IMG/VR virus record: IMGVR_UViG_3300022562_000464
Location: 1 to 38,142 of that record
Strand: one strand, 5' to 3'
Length of the DNA stretch: 38,142 bases
Origin: a virus
This document shows, piece by piece, positions 1-38,142 of this stretch; positions within the stretch are counted from its first letter, which is position 1; each line of letters starts with the position of its first letter. A program made the translations under genes and the position numbers. Under the pieces are notes generated by a model, which worked only from the letters and a program-made list of their open reading frames with translations, made no database searches and was not told where the DNA came from.

Positions 1-590
1 TGTAATGTCCCCCACACTACCACCCCTAACACGTGCAAAATCCGTAGATGTTTGCTGTGTTAAATTTAACAGCGCACGCACTTGAGTTGGGCCAACCACA
101 GCAAGTTTAGGTTGTGCGGGATCAACATCATTCGTCATGAATAACTCTTGAATTTCTGTGATCGCATCAAAACTAATTTCTGTGGTGTAGTCGCCAACTG
201 TTTGGCTAGCGGGAAAGGCTGAGGTAGAACCATCACCCACGAGGGCATCAGCAGTTGCAGCGGCAATAATAATATCATCCACTGCGCGATTCATTGAATA
301 CGCTAAGTTTTCGGTTGCTGCGGATTTTGGCTCAACCAACATTTGCACAATATCTTCATTATCAATAACTGTACCTGTGTGCACGGTTTGCGCTACAGAT
401 ACGCGGCGATTCCATGGCAAATCTAGTGCGGGTGTTGGTGGTGCTGAGGTTGTTTTGGCTACCGCGTCGGAAAAGTCTAAAGTTTCCCAGTTGTGGCGGT
501 TACCATTAGAGGCGCGCTCCATTGTGTTGCCGCGCAACTTTGATGTGTACTGTTGAGCTAGTGCTTTAACATTACGTTCATACGTTTGAA
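1..590. repeat. Imperfect direct terminal repeat, left copy (pairs with 37553-38142)
   Basis: Bases 1-590 align without gaps to 37553-38142. I count 11 substitutions, at 105, 115, 118, 145, 244, 280, 373, 406, 445, 448 and 454 of the left copy. The repeat starts and ends exactly at the window edges, which is what a contig that closes on itself looks like. The mismatches mean the two ends were not read from one identical molecule. The best explanation is a circular or circularly permuted genome assembled from closely related variants. Confidence 0.95.
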
Positions 591-624
591 TGTAAATGTT
601 GTCAATATTTAATCCACCGGCCAT
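1..624 (-). CDS. Major capsid protein, N-terminal two thirds (cut by window start)
   Basis: This is the coat protein that builds the phage head. The ATG at 624-622 follows a good ribosome site (AGGAG in the leader) and the product starts MAGGLNIDNIYIQTYE. The reading frame is open to the window edge, so about the last 95 residues are missing here. It is 98% identical over 590 bases to the capsid gene at the other end of the window, and that copy supplies the missing C-terminus. Ten of the 11 differences are silent; one changes Ile to Leu (base 105). Its place directly after a scaffold gene is the usual podovirus order. If the ends join, the full protein is 302 residues. I infer the identity from position, length and scaffold neighbour together with general resemblance to podoviral capsids; no catalytic motif exists to confirm it. 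Confidence 0.82.
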   Translation of the reverse strand, partial: MAGGLNIDNIYIQTYERNVKALAQQYTSKLRGNTMERASNGNRHNWETLDFSDAVAKTTSAPPTPALDLPWNRRVSVAQTVHTGTVIDNEDIVQMLVEPKSAATENLAYSMNRAVDDIIIAAATADALVGDGSTSAFPASQTVGDYTTEISFDAITEIQELFMTNDVDPAQPKLAVVGPTQVRALLNLTQQTSTDFARVRGGSVGDIT

Positions 625-693
625 TTTAATATCTCCTAAGTTAAATGAATAAATCTCACTTCGCTTAGGTCTGCCCAATGAATTTTGGAACCT

Positions 694-751
694 AAAAAAA
701 TTCCAGCAGCAAGACAAATCGTTAGACGGGGCTTTGCTACCTTGCCGCTGG
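694..751 (-). terminator. Terminator-like hairpin with long loop in the capsid leader
   Basis: On the minus strand, CCAGCGGCAAG (751-741) pairs with CTTGCTGCTGG (713-703) with one G-T wobble. The stem has 11 pairs, a 27-base loop, and is followed after two A by seven T (700-694). It lies between the scaffold gene and the capsid start, inside the leader of a candidate capsid promoter. It may be a leaky terminator, an attenuator or an RNA-stabilising structure. The long loop makes a simple terminator less certain. Confidence 0.5.
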
Positions 752-764
752 ATTCAGGAACGAA

Positions 765-785
765 CAAGCAATCGGTTTTTGCTTG
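765..785. other. Perfect 7-bp hairpin in the capsid leader
   Basis: CAAGCAA (765-771) and TTGCTTG (779-785) form a perfect stem around a 7-base loop. It sits just downstream of the candidate capsid promoter and upstream of the larger terminator-like hairpin, so the capsid mRNA would begin with two stacked structures. Function unknown. Confidence 0.5.
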
Positions 786-791
786 CCTTAA

Positions 792-820
792 TTTATAATT
801 CACATGTTAATTAATTGCAA
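792..820 (-). promoter_or_regulatory. Candidate sigma70 promoter for the major capsid gene
   Basis: Minus strand: -35 TTGCAA (820-815), 17-base spacer, -10 TATAAA (797-792). It begins just after the stop codon of the scaffold gene at 830 and points at the capsid gene. The predicted start is near 785, giving a leader of about 160 bases that contains two hairpins. The phage has no RNA polymerase of its own, so host-type promoters are expected. Confidence 0.45.
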
Positions 821-829
821 CCGTGTATT

Positions 830-1687
830 TTATGCACCTACGGCTTGACCATTCGCTAATCTGTGAAGTTTTATCACTTTATCAACTGCCGCCTTATGGC
901 CTGGATGATGCGCGTTCCAATAAGGGTGATCTTTATTCCCTAGAATTTCATCAATGCTTTCGTTCGCTTCTTGAGGCGCCATTGTTTTATCTTGAACATG
1001 TGCATTAATTGCTTCACCGCCTAGCTGTTTTCCTAGCTGGTGCAACCATTTAGCGGTGCTTCGATCAATGGTTTTATTTTTAATTTGGCTAAGCAAAGAT
1101 TCACTCGCACCGGTTGCTTCTGCAATATTTAATATATCGTTCATGCGCTCATCATAGGCCGCGCCCCAATCACTTTTAAGTGCATTCTGTTCACTGGTTA
1201 AGCGTTGATTTGCGGCTTCAATTTGTGAACGATTTACACCTAATATATTTTTTGCGAATTTCTTGAATTGCCGTTTTGTCATACCAATTTCTTTTGCCAT
1301 GGCGCGCAAATCGTGTAATTCATTTTCGCTTACTTCCACATCATCGCCTAATTCATACCCTTTTTCATCGTCCGGTTTACCGAGCGAACGCATAACCTGT
1401 TCAATACTTCCCTCATCCTCAGGATCGGGGGAACGCATTAACCCTGGCACACGTGCCTGTAATGTTCCATAGAACTCGTTAAGCTGTTCGGCGCCAGCAT
1501 CCTTGCCAGGAATGCGAATTGATTGGCCCATGCGTGAGCGCATATTTTCCACCTGGCTCCAAAACTTTTCGGGTGAATCACTCGTTTGTACTTCCTGCCA
1601 CGCTTGCACATTCTGTGGTAAGTTGTTGCGCCAATCTTTAGAAACTATGGTTGTATCGTTTGGTGTATCAATTGGATGGTCGCTCAT
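830..1687 (-). CDS. Capsid scaffolding / assembly protein
   Basis: Scaffold proteins guide capsid assembly and then leave the head. The product (285 residues from the ATG at 1687) is highly charged and mostly predicted helix. It has an acidic N-terminal half, a Lys/Arg-rich helix near residues 140-175 and a basic C-terminus (KAAVDKVIKLHRLANGQ), the general build of T7 gp9-like scaffolds. I chose MSDHPID as the start because GAGG lies just upstream of it; the longer in-frame start would swallow that ribosome site. The gene overlaps the end of the upstream small gene (1668) and precedes the capsid gene, as expected for a scaffold. Identification rests on composition and position rather than a diagnostic motif. 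Confidence 0.75.
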   Translation of the reverse strand: MSDHPIDTPNDTTIVSKDWRNNLPQNVQAWQEVQTSDSPEKFWSQVENMRSRMGQSIRIPGKDAGAEQLNEFYGTLQARVPGLMRSPDPEDEGSIEQVMRSLGKPDDEKGYELGDDVEVSENELHDLRAMAKEIGMTKRQFKKFAKNILGVNRSQIEAANQRLTSEQNALKSDWGAAYDERMNDILNIAEATGASESLLSQIKNKTIDRSTAKWLHQLGKQLGGEAINAHVQDKTMAPQEANESIDEILGNKDHPYWNAHHPGHKAAVDKVIKLHRLANGQAVGA

Positions 1688-1901
1688 ATTTTCTAGCCTC
1701 ATTAATTAATATGTTAAGTGCTTCTTGTTTGCCTAAATTGTAATGCGTTAAATACGGTGAATCACTCACGCACGTTTCACCAATTTGTAAAATCGATTCT
1801 AAAAACCTGCGCATCACCTCAGTTTGTGGGCCTAATAGCGCACGGTGTAAAATCGCACGGCAAGCGTTTTGCTCCGCTTCAATTTCCTGAATGCTTCGCA
1901 T
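1668..1901 (-). CDS. Small hypothetical protein between portal and scaffold
   Basis: A 77-residue, mainly helical protein starting MRSIQEIEAEQNACR. The ATG at 1901 has GAGGTG upstream at good distance; an in-frame GTG three codons earlier is less likely. No membrane segment, metal site or known motif is visible; two Cys residues are not arranged as a metal site. It follows the portal stop almost directly and overlaps the scaffold start, so it is translated with the head genes. It could be a head accessory protein or a small host-takeover protein carried in the head operon. I do not recognise a function. Confidence 0.65.
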   Translation of the reverse strand: MRSIQEIEAEQNACRAILHRALLGPQTEVMRRFLESILQIGETCVSDSPYLTHYNLGKQEALNILINEARKYERPSN

Positions 1902-1902
1902 G

Positions 1903-3549
1903 TTAAACACCTCTTATTTGCGATTGCGTCGCAACCGCTTCACTTTCCGCCTTATCTGCCTTAGCCGTTTTTTCCTGAACTTCTGCTGCGTGCTGTTCTT
2001 CTGCCATGGCTTGCCTTTCACTTCTACGTTCCTCTATCTCAGATTTAGAGCGCATAAATTTAGCTGGCACACCTTGTAAATATCCAACTTCACGAACAGC
2101 AGTATCCCAATCGGGAACGTCAAGCACCTCAGGGTTAACCTGTGCAATAAGTTGAATTTGCATCACCCATCGATCAAACGCATCAATTTGGTGGTGCTGT
2201 AATGTTCTGGCGAGCGGGCCTAAATATTCCACATCCAAATCGCTCGCCATCTCAGCAACACTAGGCGGCATTTCCGGTAATTGCTTGGCACGATATAAAA
2301 TATTGAACGTGCGATTGATTACCGGATCAAGTAAATCCGTTTGTAAGCGGCCTAAGGTTGGGCCTATTAACCGCTCTAATTGTGCAACACGTGCATTAAT
2401 TTCTGTGGCAGTAGCGGGTGTGCCTTCCATTGGTGGCAACATTAATTGGTCTAATAAAAAATAGCTGCGAATGTTTTGGCGGTATCGCTCAATTTCACTG
2501 TAATTAATATCGAAACGTGCACGACTTTCAAAAGGCGCGACCTCATCCATAGACTTAACCACAGTGTAACCACCTGGATTTAAATCTAAGTCGCTAACCA
2601 AACCGCGCTCGGTTGCCATGATAGGCGGATCAATTACTTTTTCTGCCGCTGCAATCATTAATTCAATTAACTTGTTCAGCGTCATGGTGTCAGCCAATGC
2701 CATCATGCCAGGGCTATTTCCCCACATTGAATCGCTGGTTGTGCGCCAGCGCGGAACAAAAGCAGGCATCTCATAATAGCCGCCTTCATTGCCTACGCTT
2801 TCGGCGTCCTTTTCCATAATGTATTTAAAACCCCATGGCCTAGCCATTGGCGCAATGGGTTTTGTTAAATCAACATCGGGATTATTTTTGCGGCGATAAA
2901 TACAAAAAATGATAACCTGTTTTTCATTCTGCTGCGTTGAGCCATCCTGTGCCATTTCCTTAATGTATTGCGGCACATTGTCGCCAAACTTATCCACCAA
3001 TTGAAGCGGTGTAAAATCAAAGCGACGATAAAAATTTAACACGTTATTATCTGCATCCTCTTCGAAATAACATTCCTTTAATGGCACACTCTTGAAATTA
3101 ATACCATCATAATCAACTTCGTTTTTAACCTCCTCCATAATGATAGACGATCCATAATCTACTAAATCTTGGTAGGTTTCCGCTATTTCAATATTGAAAT
3201 TAGAATCATTTAACGTCTTATATATTTGATCGGTGCACGAATCCAACCATTCCACCGCATCATTATCCTGCATTAATTGTTCATTGCGAAAACGCAATTC
3301 AAACCAGCGCACACTACCACTCGTTAAGCTGCTGTGCAGGTGTGAAGCTAAAGCCTGTGAACCCATAATTGCAGTGCCATCATAAACAAAAGGCCGCTGC
3401 CATTCGATTGAATCCTCTGTGCGTTCGTCGCGAAAAAATCTACCGCGATAAGGTGCAATATATCGCTCTATAGAATCCCACATTTGTTGCACAACTTGGC
3501 GGTGACTGGCTAGCGATTGATAGCGGCGTCTAATTTCTTCATTTAACAT
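1903..3549 (-). CDS. Portal (head-tail connector) protein, T7 gp8-like
   Basis: The portal ring forms the DNA entry vertex and joins head to tail. The 548-residue length fits T7 gp8-like connectors (about 530-560). Features typical of the head-to-tail connecting protein family are visible: an N-terminal block with SIERYIAPYRGRFF, then AIMGSQALASHLHSSLTS, a YGSSIIMEE strand, and later GTPATATEINARVAQLERLIGPTLGRL. The C-terminus is a charged, Ala/Glu/Lys-rich helix. I start at the ATG at 3549, since GAGGAAA upstream would otherwise lie inside a longer N-terminus. It overlaps the end of the Acb2-like gene, so the two are translationally linked. Confident call. Confidence 0.92.
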   Translation of the reverse strand: MLNEEIRRRYQSLASHRQVVQQMWDSIERYIAPYRGRFFRDERTEDSIEWQRPFVYDGTAIMGSQALASHLHSSLTSGSVRWFELRFRNEQLMQDNDAVEWLDSCTDQIYKTLNDSNFNIEIAETYQDLVDYGSSIIMEEVKNEVDYDGINFKSVPLKECYFEEDADNNVLNFYRRFDFTPLQLVDKFGDNVPQYIKEMAQDGSTQQNEKQVIIFCIYRRKNNPDVDLTKPIAPMARPWGFKYIMEKDAESVGNEGGYYEMPAFVPRWRTTSDSMWGNSPGMMALADTMTLNKLIELMIAAAEKVIDPPIMATERGLVSDLDLNPGGYTVVKSMDEVAPFESRARFDINYSEIERYRQNIRSYFLLDQLMLPPMEGTPATATEINARVAQLERLIGPTLGRLQTDLLDPVINRTFNILYRAKQLPEMPPSVAEMASDLDVEYLGPLARTLQHHQIDAFDRWVMQIQLIAQVNPEVLDVPDWDTAVREVGYLQGVPAKFMRSKSEIEERRSERQAMAEEQHAAEVQEKTAKADKAESEAVATQSQIRGV

Positions 3550-3781
3550 GTTCTGTTTCCTCACTATTAGGCCGCGCTATGCTTCTAATCGCTGCCATAA
3601 AACCTTGTTCTATATGTGTTCTCCCAATGCTTAACCACCGCGCATCGATGTTAGGCATCGATTTAACCGTATCTAATATGTGAAGTAACGTAGCCTCAGC
3701 AACCTTTAACTCGTTCATCATATAAATTTCAGTTTCATTTAATTCGCGGTAACCCTTAATTTTCCTGTGCTGGTTGTCCAT
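3539..3781 (-). CDS. acb2: Acb2/Tad1-hairpin family protein, probable anti-CBASS nucleotide sponge
   Basis: An 80-residue protein beginning MDNQHRKIKGYRELNETEIYMMNELK and ending with RWLSIGRTHIEQGFMAAIRS followed by IARP. This head-and-tail pair (an H-x-x-IKGYR-x-L start and an R-x-L-x-I-x-R/T-x-x-x-x-Q-GFM-A-x-R-x-x-A-x-P end around a helical hairpin) is, from memory of the family, the signature of the small phage proteins now called Acb2. Acb2 proteins assemble as oligomers that bind cyclic di- and trinucleotides and so block CBASS defence. In other phages they often sit among head genes, as here between a small gene and the portal, overlapping both. The function is inferred from family resemblance; nucleotide-binding residues were not checked against a structure. 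Confidence 0.68.
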   Translation of the reverse strand: MDNQHRKIKGYRELNETEIYMMNELKVAEATLLHILDTVKSMPNIDARWLSIGRTHIEQGFMAAIRSIARPNSEETEHVK

Positions 3782-3962
3782 CTTTTGCCCTCGGTATTGG
3801 TTTAAGTTCTGGAATTTCTAATTGCATTTCTGCGCGCTTCATTGGGCTTGGTTTACCTGTTAACTGTTCTTCTAACTCCCACGCCGCCATAAGTATTTGT
3901 GCATCACTCCACCGGTCGCCACCTGGCTTTTTCTTTTGCCCATATCGAATAACACGCGGCAT
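3756..3962 (-). CDS. Small hypothetical protein upstream of the Acb2-like gene
   Basis: A 68-residue protein with a basic start (MPRVIRYGQKKKPGGDRWSD), a central helix (AQILMAAWELEEQLTGKPS) and a Pro/Glu-rich C-terminus. The ATG has a very strong ribosome site (GGGGGAG). Its end overlaps the start of the Acb2-like gene by 26 bases, so the two are co-translated. The basic start and Trp-containing helix could bind nucleic acid or another protein, but no family is recognised. Confidence 0.6.
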   Translation of the reverse strand: MPRVIRYGQKKKPGGDRWSDAQILMAAWELEEQLTGKPSPMKRAEMQLEIPELKPIPRAKDGQPAQEN

Positions 3963-3971
3963 TTACTCCCC

Positions 3972-4253
3972 CTATTTTTTTATAAAACCTTTGGCCTCTA
4001 ACCACATGGCCACACCCACAGCAATCACACCCACTGCAATAGAAATCTTTTGAATAACGCTTTTACCCACTGCGCGGTATAGATCATTCGTTAACTTTTC
4101 CGCTGCACGTTCCGCTGATTGTTCAATTATTTGCTCGAATGGAAAATCATTCACGGCTTGATTGATAGCCAACTTAATCATGGCGTTAATTATTTTTTTC
4201 TCATCTTCATTAAACGGTAAGCCTTGCCGTCGTTCGGGGCCTTTATAGTTCAT
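3972..4253 (-). CDS. Small single-span membrane protein; possible holin-like
   Basis: A 93-residue protein. Residues 1-65 are charged and helical (MNYKGPERRQGLPFNEDEKK); residues about 68-87 form one hydrophobic span rich in Val, Ala and Gly (ISIAVGVIAVGVAMWLEAKGFI), followed by two Lys. This is a tail-anchored layout. It lies between the large terminase and the portal, where many podoviruses keep lysis genes. That context and the short span make a pinholin- or holin-like role possible, but no endolysin is next to it and the sequence alone does not decide it. Start ATG follows GGAATTGAAGCG, a moderate ribosome site. Confidence 0.6.
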   Translation of the reverse strand: MNYKGPERRQGLPFNEDEKKIINAMIKLAINQAVNDFPFEQIIEQSAERAAEKLTNDLYRAVGKSVIQKISIAVGVIAVGVAMWLEAKGFIKK

Positions 4254-4265
4254 CGCTTCAATTCC

Positions 4266-4277
4266 TTAACATGTTAA
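4266..4277. other. Perfect 12-base palindrome TTAACATGTTAA in a gene gap
   Basis: TTAACATGTTAA reads the same on both strands and fills the 33-base gap between the large terminase stop and the next start. It belongs to the over-represented AAC-NN-GTT class described below. It could be a protein-binding site; no other evidence. Confidence 0.4.
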
Positions 4278-4286
4278 ATATTGAGC

Positions 4287-5633
4287 TCAATAAGAAAACC
4301 GACTTCTGCCAGTACGCACCACCATTGGCCTGCGCATAAAATTATTTTGTCGTGTCACTCTATGGGTGTTGGCGCGTTGAGTCACATCCCCCAACTGAGG
4401 ATGGTAATTAATTGCTAAATAACGGAAGGCATCGGCGCCATGGGAATATTTATCGTGAACAGGTGAATCCATAAACTCACCGATTTTATGATCATACTTT
4501 TTGCGGTAATTATCTAAACAGTCCACACCCTTATTTGTTCGTGTGGCATCAAAATAACATTGCGGCAATAACATGCGCACAGCATTAATGCCGTCACCAA
4601 TTTTTTGCACAGGTGTAATTTCCACACTGTCGAACAGGTTAGACGCTTCAAATAATTCGCGGCGTGTGGTGCCTGTGCTTAATTCCCTTACATCGGCGTC
4701 ATGTGGTAAAAAACATGAACCATAACGATAAGGCTTCCTAGATAGATCACTAAGAATTTCAACCAGCGAAGTATTACGCCACTCCTCATAATCGATTAGC
4801 CTTATTTCATTGCGCACGCATTGGGTAAACCAAATCGCTGTTGCATCGTCCATGCCTAAATCAATTCCTAAATCAACAGGTAACGCGGGTGCAGGTGGAA
4901 TGTTTAACACGCGCCCCTCACTCTTAACACGTTCCATTTCTAAACCATAGAATGAACCGCGCACCGCTGCACTCCAATCACATAAAAATTCTTGGCGGTA
5001 TTCTTCTTCACCCATGGTTTGACGCGCCATCTCTAATTCATCCTCATCAACCACTTTGGTAATGTCGGCACGAAATGTTTTTGCCAGCCATCCTTCACGT
5101 GTTAAACCATCCTGGTAAATATCATAAAAATGATTCTTGCCATTGGGAGTGCCAAGAAAAATACACCACCCTTTTCTATCCGCTAAGGCCGGTCGCAACA
5201 CCTCTTTGTAAATTAAAGGCGACATATTGCCGTATTCATCCAATATGCACCCATCACAATAGTTACCACGCAAAGCATCAAACTCGGTTGCACCGTGTAG
5301 CCACACCATTGCATTGTTATGCGGGAACACTGCGCGCAATTCTGTTTCGTAATATTTCATGCCAGGTATGCGGCGCGTGAATTCTTTTAAATATTCCCAC
5401 GCAATTGATTTAGCTTGCTTATAGGTTGGCGCGATATAGAAAAATTTAGGGTTAGGAAGGGGGCAAGTAAGGGCACCTGCTATGGCTTCATTGATGGCTA
5501 GAACGGACTTACCAAAGCGACGGTGAATAGCAAGAACAGCAAAACGTATACGGTCGCCGTTATTGTATAGCGTGTTATGTATTTCTTGTTGGAGCGGTCG
5601 AGGCTCATAGGGAATTATTATTTTTTTCTGCAT
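4287..5633 (-). CDS. terL: Terminase large subunit (packaging ATPase-nuclease)
   Basis: The motor that pumps DNA into the head and cuts it. The 448-residue protein has both domains. The ATPase shows Walker A HRRFGKS (37-43), the adenine-side motif IAPTYKQAK, Walker B CILDEYG (129-135) and the coupling motif FLGTPNGKNHFYD (159-171). The RNase H-like nuclease shows DLGIDLGMDDATA (Asp258 the likely first metal ligand), HDAD (311-314) and SHGADAFRYLA (Asp401, the last metal ligand). All key residues are present, so it should be active. The length is short for T7 gp19 (about 590) but fits many temperate podoviruses. The ribosome site upstream of the ATG is weak. The small subunit is about 200 bases upstream. 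Confidence 0.95.
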   Translation of the reverse strand: MQKKIIIPYEPRPLQQEIHNTLYNNGDRIRFAVLAIHRRFGKSVLAINEAIAGALTCPLPNPKFFYIAPTYKQAKSIAWEYLKEFTRRIPGMKYYETELRAVFPHNNAMVWLHGATEFDALRGNYCDGCILDEYGNMSPLIYKEVLRPALADRKGWCIFLGTPNGKNHFYDIYQDGLTREGWLAKTFRADITKVVDEDELEMARQTMGEEEYRQEFLCDWSAAVRGSFYGLEMERVKSEGRVLNIPPAPALPVDLGIDLGMDDATAIWFTQCVRNEIRLIDYEEWRNTSLVEILSDLSRKPYRYGSCFLPHDADVRELSTGTTRRELFEASNLFDSVEITPVQKIGDGINAVRMLLPQCYFDATRTNKGVDCLDNYRKKYDHKIGEFMDSPVHDKYSHGADAFRYLAINYHPQLGDVTQRANTHRVTRQNNFMRRPMVVRTGRSRFSY

Positions 5634-5836
5634 AGTGAAAAATATTCATCATGGTTTTGGTATTTTGGCTGTGTGGCTTAGTACGCCTAAGCCGTCGCCG
5701 CGATTTTTGCCCCCACCCCACCCCAAAAAAACGCGGGGAACTGGGGAAAACCAAACCGATTAATGCCTATTTTTCACTGTTTTTTAAGGTGCTTGCCCTT
5801 GTTTCATCGTCAAGCAATCACTGTAACTTATTGTTT
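5634..5836. other. Structured intergenic region between terminase genes; candidate pac/cos site
   Basis: About 200 bases without a convincing gene. It holds a perfect hairpin GGCTTAG/CTAAGCC (5675-5681 and 5687-5693), a run CCCCCACCCCACCCC (5710-5724) followed by seven A, and GCGGGGAACTGGGG (5733-5746). On the minus strand the C-run is three G tracts next to a T tract. Such GC-rich structure stands out from the AT-leaning genome. A site between terS and terL is a common place for packaging recognition, so pac/cos is the suggestion; no cleavage site can be named. Confidence 0.4.
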
Positions 5837-6307
5837 TTATTGCATATTTTGTTCAATCAAGTGGTTGTGTACAAGTTCTGTGTCAAATTCACCATCAATT
5901 GTTTCGCCATCCTGCTCAATGCTTAACGTGTTATCTAATTCCCACTTGTCCTGCCCTGTTTGGAATGGCACAACCACTATGAGCGGGCCTTCGCGCCTCT
6001 CAAAACCCTGAGGTTTCGCACCACCAATATAAATGCCATGTCTCAATTGCAAATACCTATCCATGTGTTGCGCACTACCTTGCAATGCCTTTTCCCTTAA
6101 CACGTTCACACACAATTGCACATCTTCTTGATCACCAATTGCCAAACATTCCTTTAGTCTTGCATCATTTTCTAGCCTTCTATACAGCGTGGCTTCTGAC
6201 ATCCCAAGCGCTTGTGCAATCATCAACCTAGATAACCCATTAGCGGCAAGCCTCTGTGCAAGGTCATAATGTTTTTTTGTAAATTTTATCGAGCGTTTAC
6301 CAGCCAT
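5837..6307 (-). CDS. Terminase small subunit (DNA-binding)
   Basis: The small terminase recognises the packaging site. The 156-residue protein (from MAGKRSIKFTKKHYD) has an N-terminal helix-turn-helix, about residues 12-45, with the pattern AQRLAANGLSRLMIAQALGM then SEATLYRRLENDARL. This is the usual small-terminase or phage-terminase-like HTH. A central helical part (VNVLREKALQGSAQHMDRYL) suits ring assembly, and the C-terminal 50 residues are acidic. It lies directly upstream of terL, which supports the call. I start at the ATG at 6307 rather than an in-frame GTG three codons earlier; neither has a clear ribosome site. Confidence 0.78.
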   Translation of the reverse strand: MAGKRSIKFTKKHYDLAQRLAANGLSRLMIAQALGMSEATLYRRLENDARLKECLAIGDQEDVQLCVNVLREKALQGSAQHMDRYLQLRHGIYIGGAKPQGFERREGPLIVVVPFQTGQDKWELDNTLSIEQDGETIDGEFDTELVHNHLIEQNMQ

Positions 6308-6397
6308 ATTAATCACATGTTCAAATTATTCACTCACAACAAAATACAGCCACTCTCATCAAATATCAAATATGCAATAAATTGTGATGAATATTTA

Positions 6398-6925
6398 TCA
6401 CTTAATTAACTTTTCAGCACCATAAACAGCCAAAAGCATTGCCTCAGCCTTATTATGATCCTTTTTAAATTTTAGTTCAGCATTATTAATCCGCTGCAAT
6501 GCTATCGTTCTGCTGTAATCCTTATCCGCACCAGTTAAACCAAAATACCTTTTCCATTTTTGTGGTGAAACATATTCATACTGAAATAATTTAGTACACA
6601 GCACACCACGCACCACACCAAATGCATCGCCAAAACTAAATGCACCCATAGCGCCATCACGCGGCATTGAATGCACAGCTTCACAGGTTAAAAACACCTT
6701 ACAAGGCGCGCACAATTCAATCACGTGTTCAATCCACAAATTTACCGCATGTGGGCTAACGCGCTTTCGTGTCTTGGTGGTTTCAAAAGGCATATCAATG
6801 GCCTCAACCAATTGATAAAAGCTAGTCGATTCATCCTCATCATTAACACGCACAGCAGCTAACGCACCGCTTACGCCTGGATCAATACCAATGAACAATT
6901 TGCACAATTCGTTTTTCATAGTCAT
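6398..6925 (-). CDS. RuvC-like Holliday junction resolvase
   Basis: An RNase H-fold endonuclease that would resolve branched DNA before packaging. Residues near the start read LFIGIDPGVSGALA, with the first catalytic Asp in GIDPG. The second acid is in FLTCEAVHSMPRDGA, and the last is in the C-terminal DHNKAEAMLLAVYG, the classic RuvC-type D-x-x-x-A-E/D pattern. KWKRYFGLTG is also typical of phage RuvC homologues. The length (175 residues from MTMKNEL) is normal. The track upstream is a low-complexity stretch, so I prefer the ATG at 6925 (or 6919) over an earlier one. It lies next to the terminase genes, where phage resolvases often sit. Confidence 0.88.
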   Translation of the reverse strand: MTMKNELCKLFIGIDPGVSGALAAVRVNDEDESTSFYQLVEAIDMPFETTKTRKRVSPHAVNLWIEHVIELCAPCKVFLTCEAVHSMPRDGAMGAFSFGDAFGVVRGVLCTKLFQYEYVSPQKWKRYFGLTGADKDYSRTIALQRINNAELKFKKDHNKAEAMLLAVYGAEKLIK

Positions 6926-6958
6926 TTTTACTCTGGTTATTTTTTCGGCACTTTTTTG

Positions 6959-6976
6959 CAACATTTTTCGCACTTT
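6959..6976 (+). repeat. 18-base direct repeat, copy 1 (copy 2 at 7002-7019)
   Basis: CAACATTTTTCGCACTTT here and CAACATTTTTTGCACTTT at 7002-7019 match at 17 of 18 bases and are 43 bases apart. A third partial unit (GGCACTTTTTTGCAAC) overlaps the left edge. They could be iterons or operator sites. Confidence 0.6.
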
Positions 6977-7095
6977 TTTTAAAAAAACAAAAAAAATTCA
7001 TCAACATTTTTTGCACTTTAAAAACCCTCTGGCAAACTAATGTGGGTTTTAGCAAACTATTGTTAATTAGTGTGTGTTGATCATGCCCATATTGA

Positions 7096-7157
7096 CTATA
7101 TATTAATAATATTTTACGCTCGTTGGTGCGAGCGTTAAATATTAATAATATATATAG
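7096..7157. repeat. Large AT-rich hairpin with GC core
   Basis: The core ACGCTCG (7116-7122) and CGAGCGT (7129-7135) pair perfectly around a TTGGTG loop. The flanks continue as an AT-rich stem with only a few mismatches, out to CTATA/TATAG. The 12-mer TATTAATAATAT occurs directly repeated at 7101-7112 and 7140-7151, one on each arm. A structure of this size in the gap next to the primase-helicase may act in replication initiation or as a two-way terminator, though no U-tract follows the core. Confidence 0.6.
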
Positions 7158-7218
7158 GGCCACGAAAATTTTTTCATTTTTTTGATGAAAAAACCTCTCA
7201 AATTATTTCCAATCATTT

Positions 7219-9321
7219 CTAGTTATTCGGTGCACAAAACCATTCTGCTAACTCAGCATTTGAATTGCCCTGTGGCGCAATCTTTATTGCAAATTGATGT
7301 TCAAATAAAAACAATGTGCCATCACGCACAGCGCTAGGCGATAAGTTCACAGTGCGGCATTGCTTGCGCCATTCCTTAACAGTCACATGTGCCGGTTTGT
7401 GTATATCGCCATTACGTTCGTTTTCAGCGCGTTTAGCTTGAAAGAGGCGTTCTAGTTCGTTTAAGCAGGCTTCTTGCGATTTGGTGAGCGCGTGGCGTTC
7501 TGTGCGTGGCTTAAATGTCACACGTGGCGCAACAGGTTGCATAAACAATGTGGTGCGGGTTTTATCATCGGTGCCAATATTAATAACATGTGCCTCACAT
7601 GTAAGGGCCTCAGGTTCTTCGAAGTCTTTTGGTGGCTTGTGACACTGCATCTCAGTACGAAAAGACACGCCAGCGCTTAAACCATAATCATCCTCTACGC
7701 GTTTAATTAAATACGCCACATCAGCAGCACCAATTTGCACAGTGCTACCGCGTGCGCTTTGTTGATCGGCCTTACTAACATGATCTATTGGCATAACCGT
7801 GCAACCAAACGCGTGCTGCAATAACCTTAATGATCTAGTGAACGTGTTCATAGTTTCGGCGTCGTTTTCGTTACCCTCCATGCATGTGGACTTGGTATCA
7901 ATCACGATTAACGATAGAGGTATGCCGTTATTGGTGTAATAAGCGCGCAAGCGATCAATAAGCGCATAGACTTGCTTCACCCTGTTAAATATCACTGGCT
8001 CATTACTTACAATCATTTGTGGCGCACCATCGGTTATGTTCATTTCTTTCATGGCGCCTTTTAAACGCTTGCCAATGCCGCGCAAGCCTTCCCCGCAAAT
8101 ATAAGCCACACCGCCTTGTGTGCATTGCATATTGCCCCATGTGCCACCTGTGGCGATTGCTAAGGCCATTGAGAGCACGAGAAAGGATTTACCCGCGCTA
8201 GGTTTGCCAAACATCCATACAAGGGCGTCAGTGGGAATATAAGCAGGCACAAGCCAATCGCGATCACGGTCGCAATTCATAACCTCATCACAGGAATAAA
8301 ATTTGAAGTCGGGGCCTAGTGCGTCGTGTTCTTTGGTGCTGGTTATTTCAGCGGGTGATTGTGGCGATTTACCAAATTGAATATTCACCACATTACTATC
8401 ATCAGCGGCTTTTTGTTCTGCTTTGGTCTTTTGGTCGGCCACGTAATTCAATGCGTTAGATACTGTGATATTCAAATAATCTTTATGCTTGTGCAGTTTT
8501 TCAGTTTGCCCAAACATTTCACGGTTGCGCGCTATCATGTCGGCAATGATGGTGGCCGGTAGATTCATTCGAGCGGCACCTATAGCAATAGACCAATCGA
8601 CACCGCTTTGTGATTCATCGCGTTCGTGCTCATCCACATTATGTTGAAACCATATTTGTCGCCGCTCCTCTTTTGAACAGAAGCGATTTATTGCCGCCTC
8701 TAATTCAGTCCCGTTAACCTGTGCACCGTTCAAGTGTGGCAAGTCTGTGGCAACAATGGACTGTGGCAGGCTTTCTTTAAGTGGAAAAAATTCACGCATA
8801 AATTCATCCAATTGTTTTTGGCAGTGGTTAATGTCGTTGTATTGCAAAAACACATTGGGATTCATGCACACCTGGCGTTTTTCATAATACACCTCTACAC
8901 CCTTTGAATTATTCTTTCGGCCCCGCCCTTCCATCTTGGCAAAAATAATAATGTGTAAGCCTGTGCCGCTTTGACTGAATTCTGTATAGCTTGCGAATTT
9001 CTTTACCCATGCCAGCGCCCATTCATCAATTAGGCCATTAGACACACAGTTATCTAAATCGATAAAAACCAAACCATCCTCTTTAGTTAACATGTAACTC
9101 ACACCAGCGGCTTGCACGTGATTGCACACGTCCACAGCGGTATACAAATCCGTCCATGTTTGTGGGTCGGTTGAACTGGCTGTTCTATCTGGCATCAATG
9201 CTTGGAAAGGCGTTTTAATGGGTTTTTTGTTCGCATCCTTATTGGGTAACAGCTTGTAAATACACCATTGATTTCTGGCGCGCATATAACGCGGTGCTAT
9301 CAAGTCGGGATTATCCAACAT
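7219..9321 (-). CDS. Primase-polymerase / RepA-like helicase fusion protein
   Basis: A 700-residue replication protein that would prime and unwind phage DNA. The N-terminal part (1-200) resembles archaeo-eukaryotic-type prim-pol domains of phage and plasmid proteins: W-x-x-YKLLPN, KKPIKTPF, GLVFIDLDNC (83-92, metal-binding Asp-x-Asp) and SQSGTGLHIII (116-126). The C-terminal half is a RepA-type hexameric helicase: Walker A FGKPSAGKSF (about 370-380), YICGEG, Walker B LIVIDTKS, and MPIDHVSKADQQSARGS, the sensor segment with the usual GS end. A winged-helix-like tail follows. Start ATG is preceded by AAAGGTGAG. The phage has no DNA polymerase, so host polymerase III is presumably recruited. The regulator at 9359 is upstream in the same operon. 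Confidence 0.9.
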   Translation of the reverse strand: MLDNPDLIAPRYMRARNQWCIYKLLPNKDANKKPIKTPFQALMPDRTASSTDPQTWTDLYTAVDVCNHVQAAGVSYMLTKEDGLVFIDLDNCVSNGLIDEWALAWVKKFASYTEFSQSGTGLHIIIFAKMEGRGRKNNSKGVEVYYEKRQVCMNPNVFLQYNDINHCQKQLDEFMREFFPLKESLPQSIVATDLPHLNGAQVNGTELEAAINRFCSKEERRQIWFQHNVDEHERDESQSGVDWSIAIGAARMNLPATIIADMIARNREMFGQTEKLHKHKDYLNITVSNALNYVADQKTKAEQKAADDSNVVNIQFGKSPQSPAEITSTKEHDALGPDFKFYSCDEVMNCDRDRDWLVPAYIPTDALVWMFGKPSAGKSFLVLSMALAIATGGTWGNMQCTQGGVAYICGEGLRGIGKRLKGAMKEMNITDGAPQMIVSNEPVIFNRVKQVYALIDRLRAYYTNNGIPLSLIVIDTKSTCMEGNENDAETMNTFTRSLRLLQHAFGCTVMPIDHVSKADQQSARGSTVQIGAADVAYLIKRVEDDYGLSAGVSFRTEMQCHKPPKDFEEPEALTCEAHVINIGTDDKTRTTLFMQPVAPRVTFKPRTERHALTKSQEACLNELERLFQAKRAENERNGDIHKPAHVTVKEWRKQCRTVNLSPSAVRDGTLFLFEHQFAIKIAPQGNSNAELAEWFCAPNN

Positions 9322-9358
9322 AGTCTCACCTTTATTAGTTTATTAATGTGGGAAAATG

Positions 9359-9610
9359 TTAGTTTTGGTCGTAAGTTGGCACGTAATTATCAATAAAAAT
9401 ATCTGGCCTTAATTCTTCTAATTTAATGCCCATTTTCTTTTTCTGTGAGTAGCGGTATAGCTTTAATGCGTGATCACCTGGAATGCATATTTTCCACTTA
9501 CTTACATTCGTGCGGTGAACATTAAGAATTTCACTTACCCGTGTGGTGCCGCCAAATTTTGAAATGATGTTTTTAATTGCTGTTTCTTGTCGTGCTCGTT
9601 GTACAGTCAT
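9359..9610 (-). CDS. Small Cro/YdaS-like HTH regulator
   Basis: An 83-residue DNA-binding protein. Residues 12-45 fit a Cro/YdaS helix-turn-helix: IKNIISKFGGTTRVSEILNV then HRTNVSKWK, with GGTTRVSEIL as helix 2 and HRTNVSKWK as recognition helix. GDHALKLYRYSQKKKMGIKLEELRPDIF is the usual YdaS/Cro tail. The start has GAGG upstream. It is the first gene leftward from the control region and precedes the primase-helicase, the position of Cro in lambdoid phages. It likely binds the TGCAC sites at its own promoter and at the rightward operon (inference). Confidence 0.78.
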   Translation of the reverse strand: MTVQRARQETAIKNIISKFGGTTRVSEILNVHRTNVSKWKICIPGDHALKLYRYSQKKKMGIKLEELRPDIFIDNYVPTYDQN

Positions 9611-9642
9611 GTGATTAGCCTCTGTGAGTTATTGCCACTTAA

Positions 9643-9674
9643 TTATATTGCACACGTTAAATTTCACCGTCAAC
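9643..9674 (-). promoter_or_regulatory. Candidate leftward promoter for the regulator/primase operon
   Basis: Minus strand: -35 TTGACG (9674-9669) and a perfect -10 TATAAT (9648-9643). The spacer is 20 bases, longer than ideal, so the exact -35 is uncertain. A GTGTGCAA operator-like half-site lies between the two elements. The predicted start is some 25 bases before the ATG at 9610. Confidence 0.45.
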
Positions 9675-9900
9675 GCACAGAAATGCACATTAATTTGTGC
9701 ATAACTTTATTTAAATTAAATGCACTTAGTAAGTTCTTGTTAGTTTTAGTAATTATTTATTGTGATGATGAAAGTTATGCACTGTGCATTTTTTTGCACA
9801 TTTTTTTTAGTCATTTGTTGGGTTAATTTTGATTTATGCACAGCGGGTTGCACCCAGTTGTGCCAGGTGTAAACCAGTGTAAACCAGTGGTGTAAATATC
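9650..9900. promoter_or_regulatory. Divergent control region with TGCAC operator-like sites
   Basis: The gap between the leftward regulator and the rightward recombination operon carries many TGCAC/GTGCA half-sites. Two are paired as dyads: ATGCACA-6-TGTGCAT (9684-9703) and ATGCAC-T-GTGCAT (9777-9789). Singles occur at 9650, 9720, 9795, 9837, 9849 and 9859. Next to the rightward gene is a tandem 10-base direct repeat GTGTAAACCA (9867-9876, 9877-9886) and a partial third (GTGTAAAT, 9890). This is the likely genetic switch. No clear rightward -10/-35 pair could be fixed. Confidence 0.6.
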
Positions 9901-9914
9901 AAACAGGTGAATCT

Positions 9915-10718
9915 ATGATCGAAGCAATCGCAGAAGAAAAACCGAAAGCAAAAAATGCGCTTTCAATTATTCAAACAAATGAGCCAGGGCCTATAGCCGC
10001 GTGTGTACTGGGGCCTCCTGGCGTCGGTAAAACAACATTCTGTTTTAGCGCGCCAAAACCTATTGGAATACTTACCGAACGCGGATTGGGTGATTTGGTG
10101 GTTGATCACTTCCCATTGTGCAAAAAATTTGATCATGTGCTCGATGCGGTTAACCGGTTAATTAATTCAGAACACGACTATAAAACCGTCGTTTTAGATT
10201 CATTAGATTGGTTGCAAGAATTGATTTTTGACCATGTTTGTCGCCGCCATAATGTTGAATCGATAGAGGACGCCAATGGCGGTTATGGCAAAGGCTATGT
10301 CGAGGCTCTACGGGAATGGCGAAAGCTCCTAGATTTATTCGACATATTACGATTCGAATTAAAAATGAACGTGTTAATGACTGCGCACACCGAAGTCAAG
10401 AAAGTGCAAGATCCGCGCTTGCCCACTTATGACAGTTACGCCATTAAATTAAATAAGCGCGCTTCGAGTGTTGTCGAGGAATACTGTGACGCTATTTTAT
10501 TTTGCAGTTGGGATGTGACAGTCAAAGAAACCAAAGAAGGCGGACAAAAACGCACACGCGCTTTGGCGGACGCACCGCGCATTATCCACACGGATTTATC
10601 ACCGCTGTACACAGCAAAAAACCGTTTTCATTTACCCGCCACATTGCCGCTTAAATGGTCGGCATTTGAGGCGGCACTTAATGAATCACGTAATAAGTTA
10701 ATTAATAAAGGAAATTAA
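9915..10718 (+). CDS. Sak4-like RecA-fold ATPase (phage recombinase, AAA_24)
   Basis: A 267-residue P-loop ATPase of the phage nucleotide-binding type, several members of which (Sak4) act as single-strand annealing recombinases. Walker A is LGPPGVGKTT (32-41), Walker B is YKTVVLDSLDWLQ (about 93-105). NVLMTAHTEVKKVQDPR is the sensor strand and loop, and the C-terminal VVEEYCDAILFC is typical of the family. The next two genes encode a DUF669-like ssDNA-binding protein and an exonuclease, the standard partners. AGGTGA precedes the ATG. It is the first gene of the rightward operon. The family call is firm; the recombinase role is inferred from context. Confidence 0.85.
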   Translation: MIEAIAEEKPKAKNALSIIQTNEPGPIAACVLGPPGVGKTTFCFSAPKPIGILTERGLGDLVVDHFPLCKKFDHVLDAVNRLINSEHDYKTVVLDSLDWLQELIFDHVCRRHNVESIEDANGGYGKGYVEALREWRKLLDLFDILRFELKMNVLMTAHTEVKKVQDPRLPTYDSYAIKLNKRASSVVEEYCDAILFCSWDVTVKETKEGGQKRTRALADAPRIIHTDLSPLYTAKNRFHLPATLPLKWSAFEAALNESRNKLINKGN

Positions 10719-10720
10719 AA

Positions 10721-11194
10721 ATGTCTATTTCATTCACAAATGATCAATACGAAAGCGAAGGGTTTAAGCCGTTTGCTAGTGGTTGGGTTGACGCACAAAT
10801 AAGTGACTTTGGCGACGATACCAACAAAGCAGGCACAGGTGAGCTTGCTTGGTTTGAATTCACAATCACCAGTGGCGCCGATAAAGGCCGCGCTTTTCGC
10901 CAGTTCTATAACTATGATCACCCCAATGAAGATGCACAGCGAATTTCACGTGAGCATATTTGCGCCATTGCCAGAATAGTTAACGTGAAAAATATTGTGT
11001 TGCCTGAGGGTTTAGGCGACTTCAACAATAAAAAACTACGCATTCGAATTAGCCAGAAGAAAAATGATGAATTCCCACAAATCAAAGAATATGCGCCATT
11101 AAACCAAGATGGTTTCGATTCGTTGGTGAGTGATGAATTCGAAGTTGAACCCACACCACAGCGCGCACGCCGCGCAGATCCTTACGCTCAATAA
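10721..11194 (+). CDS. DUF669-like single-stranded DNA-binding protein
   Basis: A 157-residue protein matching the DUF669 pattern. It has a short strand-rich domain with GWVDAQISDFGDD, LAWFEFTITSGADKGRAFRQF and YNYDHPNEDAQRISREHICA, and an acidic, partly disordered C-terminus. DUF669 proteins accompany Sak4-type ATPases and are thought to be phage SSBs. The stop of the upstream gene is two bases before this ATG, which has AAAGGA in front. The tail ends in basic RARRADPYAQ rather than the acidic tip typical of bacterial SSB. Confidence 0.8.
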   Translation: MSISFTNDQYESEGFKPFASGWVDAQISDFGDDTNKAGTGELAWFEFTITSGADKGRAFRQFYNYDHPNEDAQRISREHICAIARIVNVKNIVLPEGLGDFNNKKLRIRISQKKNDEFPQIKEYAPLNQDGFDSLVSDEFEVEPTPQRARRADPYAQ

Positions 11195-11234
11195 ACACTG
11201 GGGGCCTTGCCCCCTTTAACTGGGGAATAAAACA

Positions 11235-12320
11235 ATGTCGGTGAATTTAAGTGATGATCCAACCATTTTAAAAATGATGGAAACGAGCGAACGTCTACAA
11301 GACAAAACGCCGCGCAGTTATTTGGGTATGTCTTCAATGGGTGAAGATTGCGACAGAAAACTGTGGAATGATTTTAGACAAGTGAGTCTTAATTGGTTTC
11401 CTGCTAAAACACTTTACGCCTTTGAGGATGGGCACGCCTCAGAAGAAATAACAGCATTTAGGTTGAAAGACATTAGCGGTATTGAACTCGTTACACATAC
11501 GGCCTTAGGTGAGCAAATAGGCTATGTAGATCATGGCGGTCATTTTCGCGGCCACATGGATGGCAAAATAAAAGGGTTAGAACAAGCGCCAGAAAAGTGG
11601 CACGTGTGGGAACACAAATGCAGTAGCCAAACAACGTTTAACAAGTTCGTTAAATTAACCCAAACATTACCACCGAATGAAGTATTAAAAAAATGGAATC
11701 CTAAATACTACGCACAAGCACAGCTCTATATGCACTATTCGGGTTTTGATCGACACTATCTCACTGTAGCGCTAGCAGGTTCACGCGAATATAAAGCGGT
11801 GCGAACCAGCTTAAATAAGCGTGAAGCCAAAAACCTAGTTGAACGCGCTGGTGACATTATCGCCAGTGATAAACCACTGGATAAAATTAGTGAAAATGCA
11901 GACCACTTCAATTGTAAATGGTGCAATTATGCTGGCATGTGCCATGGCACCGAATTGCCGCAATCTAATTGCCGCACATGCTTGCATTCCTTCCCAATTC
12001 AAGAGGGTATAAATGGGCACTGGTACTGTGATCGATTTATGCAAAGAATCGAACCGGATAAACAAAAGCAAACCGATTGCGCAGCACACCTTTACATTCC
12101 CCGTTTATTAAAGAATGTTGGTGAATTAAAACATGTTGATACCGATGGGCGTGCAATTACTTACACCAATAAGTTAACAGGAAAAGAGTTTGTTAATGGC
12201 CCTGGCTTAGACCAATACGAAAGCAATGAATTAATGAATTTAGACGCCGCACTAATTGGTGACACTATGTCGGATACACTTAAAAAAACTTTTGGTGCGC
12301 GTGCGGGGATAAAACAATGA
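11235..12320 (+). CDS. PD-(D/E)XK exonuclease (Cas4/YqaJ-like) with Cys motif
   Basis: A 361-residue nuclease that would produce single strands for annealing. The PD-(D/E)XK core is visible: GHASEEITAFRL (helix Glu), FRGHMDGKIKG (catalytic Asp), VWEHKCSS (the E-x-K pair) and YYAQAQLYMHY (the Q-x-x-x-Y helix). Four Cys follow in CKWCNYAGMCHG and nearby, then CRTCLHSF and WYCDRF, suggesting a Cas4/AddB-like metal or Fe-S site (inference). The C-terminal 60 residues are extra. GGGGA precedes the ATG. It overlaps the next gene by ATGA. With the Sak4-like and SSB genes it forms a recombination module. Confidence 0.85.
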   Translation: MSVNLSDDPTILKMMETSERLQDKTPRSYLGMSSMGEDCDRKLWNDFRQVSLNWFPAKTLYAFEDGHASEEITAFRLKDISGIELVTHTALGEQIGYVDHGGHFRGHMDGKIKGLEQAPEKWHVWEHKCSSQTTFNKFVKLTQTLPPNEVLKKWNPKYYAQAQLYMHYSGFDRHYLTVALAGSREYKAVRTSLNKREAKNLVERAGDIIASDKPLDKISENADHFNCKWCNYAGMCHGTELPQSNCRTCLHSFPIQEGINGHWYCDRFMQRIEPDKQKQTDCAAHLYIPRLLKNVGELKHVDTDGRAITYTNKLTGKEFVNGPGLDQYESNELMNLDAALIGDTMSDTLKKTFGARAGIKQ

Positions 12321-19287: not shown

Positions 19288-19479
19288 GAGCCGACAAATG
19301 GTCACATGTGGCCTAAAGTATGTTTTTGCGGCCTATCCTGAGGATTCACGCGCCTTTCAAAGCACTTGATTAACATGTTGTCACACACCAAAAGCCACCA
19401 TAAAACACCATACCCAACTTGCTTTTTGACACGGTTTTTATACACTGTTGGTAATTCTTCACTATTCGAGGCAAGACAC

Positions 19480-20775
19480 ATGGCAAACCCTGTTAACAAA
19501 TCCCGCGTTAAAGTTCCTGGCTTCACTGGTATCTATTCACGCTGTAACCGCATTCAAATCAAGTTCACATGGGGAGGTAAAACACACTACCAACCGGTAG
19601 GCTTAGACCTTACCAAACCGAACATCAAAGCAGCGGCTAAGATTCTCGAAACTGTAGAGGCTCAAATTAACATGGGTTTATTTGACTTCGCGGAATTCTT
19701 TCCCAATAGCAAAACTGACACAGTGATAAACGAACAAATGACAGTGGCTAAGCTGTGTGATCTATGGTTTGACAACTGGAAAAAGAACAACCCGCTACGG
19801 TCGAATAGTTCTAGGCGTGGTCATACTTCAATCATCAATAACCACTTTAAGCCACGCGCCAAACTGGGCACGCGTGCTGTTCAATCGATCACTAAAACCG
19901 TGCTGGTTAACTGGCACTCATCATTGCAAACCGATAAAGGCGGCGAATTAAGCCCTTCGCAATTGGGCAAAATTCACACAGTTGCACAGTTCATATTCAG
20001 CTATGCGGAAGGGCTAGGTGTTTTCAAGGATGGCAACCCATGGAATGAATTTAAGGCGTTCTATGAGCACCACCTTAAGCGCACTGGCGAATCAAATTCT
20101 ATTAGTCTTGATGTGCCACTCACAAAAGAAGAATTAGAGCGCATTCTAGCTGCGCCAGGATGCGAACAAACAAAGAACGCCATAAGGTTTAATACTGCCA
20201 TGGGCTTGCGTACTGGTGAGTTATACGGCCTTACATGGGATCGCATCGATTGGGAAAACAAAACCGTATTAATTGATAGACAAATGACACACGGTCACTT
20301 TAAAGGGCCTAAGTATAAATCTATTCGCACTTTGACTTTAACCCATGCAGCAATTGAAGCGCTTAAAGCACAGCAAAAATTCATATTCCAGCAAGAAAAA
20401 TGCGACGTTGAATTTCACGCTGATAAGCTGGATAAGGATGGCGCGCAAATTATCGAACAGGTTAAAGGCGCCAAGTTTGTTTTCTCGAACCCACAAACAA
20501 ACCGCCATTATTGTGATGGCGCTAACTTCGCATCGCGCTGGTATAGCTTGTTAGAAGCGGCGAACGTAGCGCGTGAAACTGTGGAGGGTGAAACTAGAAC
20601 GCCTTACACAATGCGCCACACGTTTGCATCTAGGCTGTTCACCAATGGCGCGCCAATAGAATTTGTGGCACGTGAACTTGGTAATACACCTGGCGTTTGT
20701 CGTAAGCGTTACGCTCGAATTATTCCAAGTGAACAGAAGTTTGACCACTCACTTAAAAATCAATACTTAGGGTAA
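19480..20775 (+). CDS. int: Tyrosine recombinase integrase
   Basis: Integrates and, with an excision factor, removes the prophage. The 431-residue protein (ATG at 19480, GAGG upstream) has an arm-DNA-binding domain (about 8-75, DUF3596-like: GVxxGI/FTGIYSRCNRIQIKFTW), a core-binding domain (about 85-195) and a catalytic domain (about 212-425). Catalytic residues: Arg244 in GLRTGEL, Lys around 277-279, Arg379 in YTMRHTFAS and Tyr411 in KRYARI. Tyr376 stands where many have the first His of HxxR, and Asn402 (LGN) where many have LGH; both occur in this subgroup. It is the first gene of a short plus operon. The attP-like site is directly upstream. Confidence 0.93.
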   Translation: MANPVNKSRVKVPGFTGIYSRCNRIQIKFTWGGKTHYQPVGLDLTKPNIKAAAKILETVEAQINMGLFDFAEFFPNSKTDTVINEQMTVAKLCDLWFDNWKKNNPLRSNSSRRGHTSIINNHFKPRAKLGTRAVQSITKTVLVNWHSSLQTDKGGELSPSQLGKIHTVAQFIFSYAEGLGVFKDGNPWNEFKAFYEHHLKRTGESNSISLDVPLTKEELERILAAPGCEQTKNAIRFNTAMGLRTGELYGLTWDRIDWENKTVLIDRQMTHGHFKGPKYKSIRTLTLTHAAIEALKAQQKFIFQQEKCDVEFHADKLDKDGAQIIEQVKGAKFVFSNPQTNRHYCDGANFASRWYSLLEAANVARETVEGETRTPYTMRHTFASRLFTNGAPIEFVARELGNTPGVCRKRYARIIPSEQKFDHSLKNQYLG

Positions 20776-37267: not shown

Positions 37268-38142
37268 TTATGGTGTGTAAGTGTCAGCGAATGCACCACG
37301 TACAATTTTGCGGTCGTCCACGCGAACAGCGCCCATAACAAGATAGGCGTAAATGCGCCACGCAAAAGAGCTGCTAGGATCTTGCGCAATTTGTACGGTT
37401 AAATCTTGGTTAACTTGTAAACCAAGTGCATCGGGGCAGAAAAACAAAGTATCGATTTGATCAACAGCGGGTGCTAACAAACGAGTTGACATAATCCAAG
37501 TGAAGCCCATCCAATTAGGCACAATCCCGCTAGCCATTAAATTCGTTAGCGGTGTAATGTCCCCCACACTACCACCCCTAACACGTGCAAAATCCGTAGA
37601 TGTTTGCTGTGTTAAATTTAACAGCGCACGCACTTGAGTTGGGCCAACCACAGCAATTTTAGGTTGCGCTGGATCAACATCATTCGTCATGAATAATTCT
37701 TGAATTTCTGTGATCGCATCAAAACTAATTTCTGTGGTGTAGTCGCCAACTGTTTGGCTAGCGGGAAAGGCTGAGGTAGAACCATCACCCACGAGTGCAT
37801 CAGCAGTTGCAGCGGCAATAATAATATCATCTACTGCGCGATTCATTGAATACGCTAAGTTTTCGGTTGCTGCGGATTTTGGCTCAACCAACATTTGCAC
37901 AATATCTTCATTATCAATAACTGTGCCTGTGTGCACGGTTTGCGCTACAGATACGCGTCGATTCCATGGCAAATCTAGTGCGGGTGTTGGTGGTGCGGAA
38001 GTTGTCTTGGCTACCGCGTCGGAAAAGTCTAAAGTTTCCCAGTTGTGGCGGTTACCATTAGAGGCGCGCTCCATTGTGTTGCCGCGCAACTTTGATGTGT
38101 ACTGTTGAGCTAGTGCTTTAACATTACGTTCATACGTTTGAA
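37268..38142 (-). CDS. Major capsid protein, C-terminal part (cut by window end)
   Basis: The open frame runs in from the window edge and stops at 37268. It supplies about the last 290 residues of the 302-residue capsid protein; the first 11 lie beyond the edge and are given by the left copy. Parts of interest are RRVSVAQTVHTGTVIDNEDI (near 60), the strand VVGPTQVRALLNL (near 170), and the C-terminal SSFAWRIYAYLVMGAVRVDD, which look like the strand-rich core and tail of an HK97-fold podoviral coat protein. The tail operon follows as expected. The in-frame ATG at 38089 is internal and not the true start. Confidence 0.82.
   Translation of the reverse strand, partial: QTYERNVKALAQQYTSKLRGNTMERASNGNRHNWETLDFSDAVAKTTSAPPTPALDLPWNRRVSVAQTVHTGTVIDNEDIVQMLVEPKSAATENLAYSMNRAVDDIIIAAATADALVGDGSTSAFPASQTVGDYTTEISFDAITEIQELFMTNDVDPAQPKIAVVGPTQVRALLNLTQQTSTDFARVRGGSVGDITPLTNLMASGIVPNWMGFTWIMSTRLLAPAVDQIDTLFFCPDALGLQVNQDLTVQIAQDPSSSFAWRIYAYLVMGAVRVDDRKIVRGAFADTYTP
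37553..38142. repeat. Imperfect direct terminal repeat, right copy (pairs with 1-590)
   Basis: Right partner of the 590-base terminal repeat, with 11 substitutions and no gaps. It ends exactly at the window edge. Merging the copies would give a circle of about 37,552 bases. Confidence 0.95.

Follow-up and report, generated by a model that had tools for sequence, protein, structure and literature searches.

A predicted Acb2 anti-CBASS gene among the head genes of a temperate podovirus

Introduction

Does a small gene that overlaps the portal gene of a virus encode an Acb2 cyclic-nucleotide sponge, and how might such a gene have come to lie among structural genes? An earlier note on the virus record IMGVR_UViG_3300022562_000464, made from the sequence alone, had proposed an Acb2-like anti-CBASS gene at positions 3539-3781, inside the head operon. 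We followed up this proposal across the window, by which we mean the whole stretch of 38,142 nucleotides, and in related phage genomes.

Results

Judged from its genes, which include a tyrosine integrase at 19366-20775, a capsid gene at 37268-38140, a Head-tail_con portal and a terminase, the record is a temperate podovirus. Its two ends (1-590 and 37553-38142), both inside the capsid gene, are 98.1% identical over 590 bp, with 11 mismatches. This overlap probably reflects circular permutation of a complete or nearly complete genome of ~37.5 kb; the assembly may draw on a mixed population. A test for exact terminal repeats would not reveal the overlap. A near-identity DNA search of window positions 1-12000 against phages returned no matches, and in a scan of genome contigs with a portal alignment, aimed at the host, the portals retrieved were all distant (24-26% identity) and came from two MAGs, labelled Rickettsiaceae and Candidatus Finniella.

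On the minus strand, the gene order is terminase, a 93-aa protein, a 68-aa protein, acb2, portal, an 80-aa protein, a probable scaffold and the capsid. The features that concern us here are as follows:

4287..5633, minus strand: terminase large subunit (PF03237; phrog_2, E 5e-38)
3972..4253, minus strand: 93-aa protein with a C-terminal hydrophobic stretch (seen by eye), between the terminase and the 68-aa gene
3756..3962, minus strand: conserved small gene of 68 aa, upstream of acb2 (64-aa homologue in the related phage L082, 37% identity, E 2e-10)
3539..3781, minus strand: acb2, predicted cyclic-nucleotide sponge of 80 aa (profile, PDB, fold and residue matches)
1903..3549, minus strand: portal (head-to-tail connecting protein, Head-tail_con), 548 aa from ATG 3549 (PF12236, 375 bits; phrog_332)
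830..1702, minus strand: probable scaffold or internal head gene downstream of the portal, between portal and capsid and conserved in relatives (phrog_3742, function unknown)

The acb2 frame runs from an ATG at 3781 to a stop at 3539, exactly the coordinates first proposed. It shares 26 bp with the 68-aa gene upstream and also overlaps the portal gene, as the earlier note had said, by 11 bp (or by 26 bp if an upstream GTG at 3564 is the portal start). The N-terminus of the product is MDNQHRKIKGYREL, as had been quoted; the supposed C-terminal end, SIGRTHIEQGFMAAIRS, is present in the protein but does not end it, since a 13-residue tail, IARPNSEETEHVK, comes after.

The profile search that had been suggested gave a clear match to the Acb2 family: Pfam PF24729 (Acb2_Tad1_hairpin) aligned over its full length (profile positions 1-58 of 58) and scored 63 bits where the cut-off is 27 (E 3e-17). 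We also made a profile of homologues from other phages, with the window protein and PaP2 excluded; run against all six frames of the window, it matched the acb2 frame alone (E 2e-36), and on the strength of these two results we dismiss a chance match. The closest solved sequences found by phmmer were those of PaP2 p26, which is Acb2 (8h2j, E 3.2e-15; 8ixz, E 1.6e-14), followed in third rank by T4 Vs.4 (E 0.67). Among PHROGs the product falls in phrog_717, of unknown function, and NCBIfam and PADLOC yielded no matches to it, which reflects the content of these libraries (PADLOC covers defence, not counter-defence).

Structure prediction agreed with the profile. An AlphaFold model built with 36 sequences consists of two long antiparallel helices (residues 16-40 and 47-69) with pLDDT above 95 over most of both and block means of 89-99 across residues 11-70; the N-terminal 10 residues are of low confidence (mean 54), and the model does not show the short N-terminal helix as such. 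When this model was compared with the PDB by Foldseek, only PaP2 Acb2 (E 9e-5, TM 0.70) and T4 Vs.4 (E 7.5e-3) were matched at E <0.01, the remaining matches being unspecific (E >1) and for the most part helical. Sequence and model together thus indicate that 3539-3781 encodes a true Acb2, a known type of protein with a well-described mechanism, whose novelty lies only in its position in this virus.

The likeness to PaP2/PaMx33 Acb2 (p26; PDB 8h2j, 8h2x, 8ixz) extends over the N-terminal motif MDNQHxKIKGYR, the C-terminal motif RWLxIGxTxIxxGxMAxIRxIAxP, which is identical in the window protein, the Y11/K26 and R/T positions, and the predicted hairpin fold. The two differ in overall length (80 aa in the window, 13 residues fewer than the 93 aa of PaP2/PaMx33), in the C-terminal tail, which is a polar NSEETEHVK in the window protein and DSF in PaP2 Acb2, and in the loop between the long helices, which is shorter in the window protein within a family where loop length varies widely. 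We considered this short loop as a possible new variant and rejected the idea, as the loop is similarly short in most homologues from viral contigs. The genes are also differently placed: acb2 of PaP2 converges with an annotated capsid gene, whereas the window gene lies inside the terminase-portal operon. T4 Acb2/Vs.4 (PDB 7uq2) has the same fold as the window model and conserves the Y, N, K, T and P positions, yet it is only ~25% identical in a structural alignment, its type carries D at the position of window (R48) and PaP2 R, and its gene, close to regB and vs, lies outside the structural regions. Acb2 homologues of Pseudomonas phages (MZ868714.1, MT104468.1 and similar ones) are annotated in public records as 'NAD/FAD-utilizing enzyme', very probably wrongly.

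We next consider the residues associated with ligands, using an alignment of 38 proteins that takes in PaP2 Acb2 and one T4-type Acb2. Y11, N23, K26 and P71 were invariant in all 38, K26 being what we take to be a residue of the cyclic dinucleotide site of Acb2, and R48 and T55 were kept in 37/38. The latter pair aligns with R67 and T74 of PaP2, presumably its cyclic trinucleotide contacts. By this alignment, the window protein keeps residues of both the dinucleotide site (Y11, K26) and the presumed trinucleotide site (R48, T55). Y11 aligns with T4 Y8, for which a ligand-binding role has been shown by mutation; T4 Acb2 has another ligand contact at F82 (PMC12657218), a position that is A in both the window protein and PaP2.

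To place the gene in its lineage, we compared the window with the nearest relative that we found, L082 (identities: portal 56%, terminase 62.5% and capsid 66%). There the terminase gene is followed by the 64-aa gene, portal, scaffold and capsid, without acb2 between them, and the 64-aa gene, the homologue of the window 68-aa gene, directly overlaps the portal start. In the Vibrio phages K300 and Rostov 6, terminase and portal are direct neighbours. No acb2 was found in ~80 portal-relative loci (record fragments, in the stretches available), and a search over the full length of the L082, L083 and L086 records did not find it either. For this reason we favour gain over loss: acb2 was probably gained between the 68-aa gene and the portal rather than lost from L082, and the 68-aa gene probably marks the backbone into which it was inserted. 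This 64-68 aa small gene (window 3756-3962; L082 7810-8004) carries the pattern RVIRxGxKxKP ... WELE between terminase and portal, and may encode an accessory protein of the terminase or the portal. The neighbouring 93-aa gene, which had no Pfam or PHROG family match above cut-off and is absent from L082 at this place, is a second accessory gene near acb2.

In other phages, acb2 occupies varied positions. The closest acb2 sequence (63%, in L002) lies in front of a DNA primase gene and that of Pseudoalteromonas phage B8b in front of RecT, placements from which we conclude that acb2 moves between phage backbones. Elsewhere it sits between terminase and portal (L004, L043), between portal and protease (L023), between portal and scaffold (L022), after the portal (L038), or beside the tail sheath (L019 and Vibrio phage 1.087.A), a spread that covers several portal families. 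Vibrio phage 1.087.A, L004, L043, L022 and L023 therefore resemble the window in having acb2 among structural genes, but their backbones, portal families and insertion points differ from those of the window.

Of 49 records with acb2 that were screened for position, 14 had a Pfam portal hit and were counted. The gene was within ~1 kb of the portal in four of these (L023, L030, L070 and L043, the first three sharing a layout) and ~5 kb or more away in the other 10, so that a strict rule placing acb2 beside the portal was rejected. Unrelated phages repeatedly have acb2 close to terminase, portal or tail genes, but as a minority layout. In the shared layout of L030, L023 and L070, acb2 directly follows a lambda-type portal and a protease comes next (families checked in L023), a distinct arrangement in which acb2 recurs within head operons.

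These comparisons bear on two other accounts of the gene. As PF24729 spans the hairpin of Acb2 and Tad1 alike, the product might correspond to the hairpin portion of a Tad1-type sponge that blocks Thoeris by way of gcADPR. Tad1, however, has an N-terminal antiparallel beta-sheet domain (PMC12043709), whereas the window protein is only 80 aa long and all helical in the model, with no strands and no room for them before residue 11; the complete Acb2 N-terminus MDNQH stands at the protein start, and the upstream gene encodes a different 68-aa protein that does not supply the missing domain. The best sequence and fold matches are all to Acb2 and none to Tad1, and a review ascribes to Acb2 the capture of cyclic di- and trinucleotides only, capture of gcADPR, the Thoeris signal, being credited to Tad1 and Tad2 (PMC12043709). 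We regard this account as very improbable, and the protection against Thoeris that the earlier note had envisaged finds no support in that review.

The position of the gene, between a head-operon gene and the portal here and adjoining terminase or portal in other phages too, could instead suggest that an Acb2 relative, degenerate or repurposed, no longer binds ligands and serves a structural or assembly role beside the portal. Against this stand the retention of the ligand-associated Y11, K26, R48 and T55, the head genes of ~80 portal relatives that do without acb2 at this place, and the homologues that other phages carry in replication or other non-structural regions, and we consider such a role very improbable. 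The explanation we hold with high confidence is a joint one, in which a true Acb2, translated from the head mRNA as an accessory insertion beside the portal, would form hexamers that sequester CBASS signals.

Discussion

Combining these results, we outline a model for how this Acb2 may act. An accessory acb2 would have entered this phage lineage between the conserved 68-aa gene and the portal. Given the tight overlaps, it would be translated from the terminase-portal-head mRNA, in lytic growth or after prophage induction, and gene order likewise leads us to infer its co-expression with structural proteins; a promoter scan of the acb2 region found sites no more numerous than expected by chance. 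By analogy with PaP2 and T4 Acb2, the protein would fold as a helical hairpin and then form a hexamer, holding cyclic dinucleotides at head-to-head sites of the hexamer via Y11 and K26 and cyclic trinucleotides probably at the trimer ends via R48 and T55. Sequestration of both kinds of signal by these hexamers is likely to block CBASS effectors, and signal removal would keep them off until virions are made.

The suggestion that the gene might also protect a lysogen runs against a review that reports Acb2 acting in induction, not in lysogenic maintenance (PMC12043709), and the late-operon placement of acb2 points the same way. Phages from which acb2 has been deleted evade CBASS when their major capsid gene is changed (PMC10419184). 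This hints at a link between the production of capsid and the activation of CBASS, in view of which a late supply of Acb2 would make sense. A possible cost is that, in hosts with Panoptes, Acb2 itself sets off defence (PMC12657218).

A broader reading is that phages repeatedly place acb2 in terminase-portal-head operons such that the sponge is made as synthesis of the capsid, a suspected CBASS trigger, begins, and that the sponge may even travel with the head. We think this generalization unlikely; if true, it would mean that expression of the sponge is matched in time to the moment of CBASS activation.

For this lineage, our results add a confident Acb2 to a group of temperate podoviruses in which no examined relative has one in the head region. 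The contrast between L082, which is without the gene, and the window, which has it, offers a clean comparison suggesting that acb2 can enter a head operon while overlapping both of its neighbours, and the two layouts make the timing of anti-CBASS expression testable.
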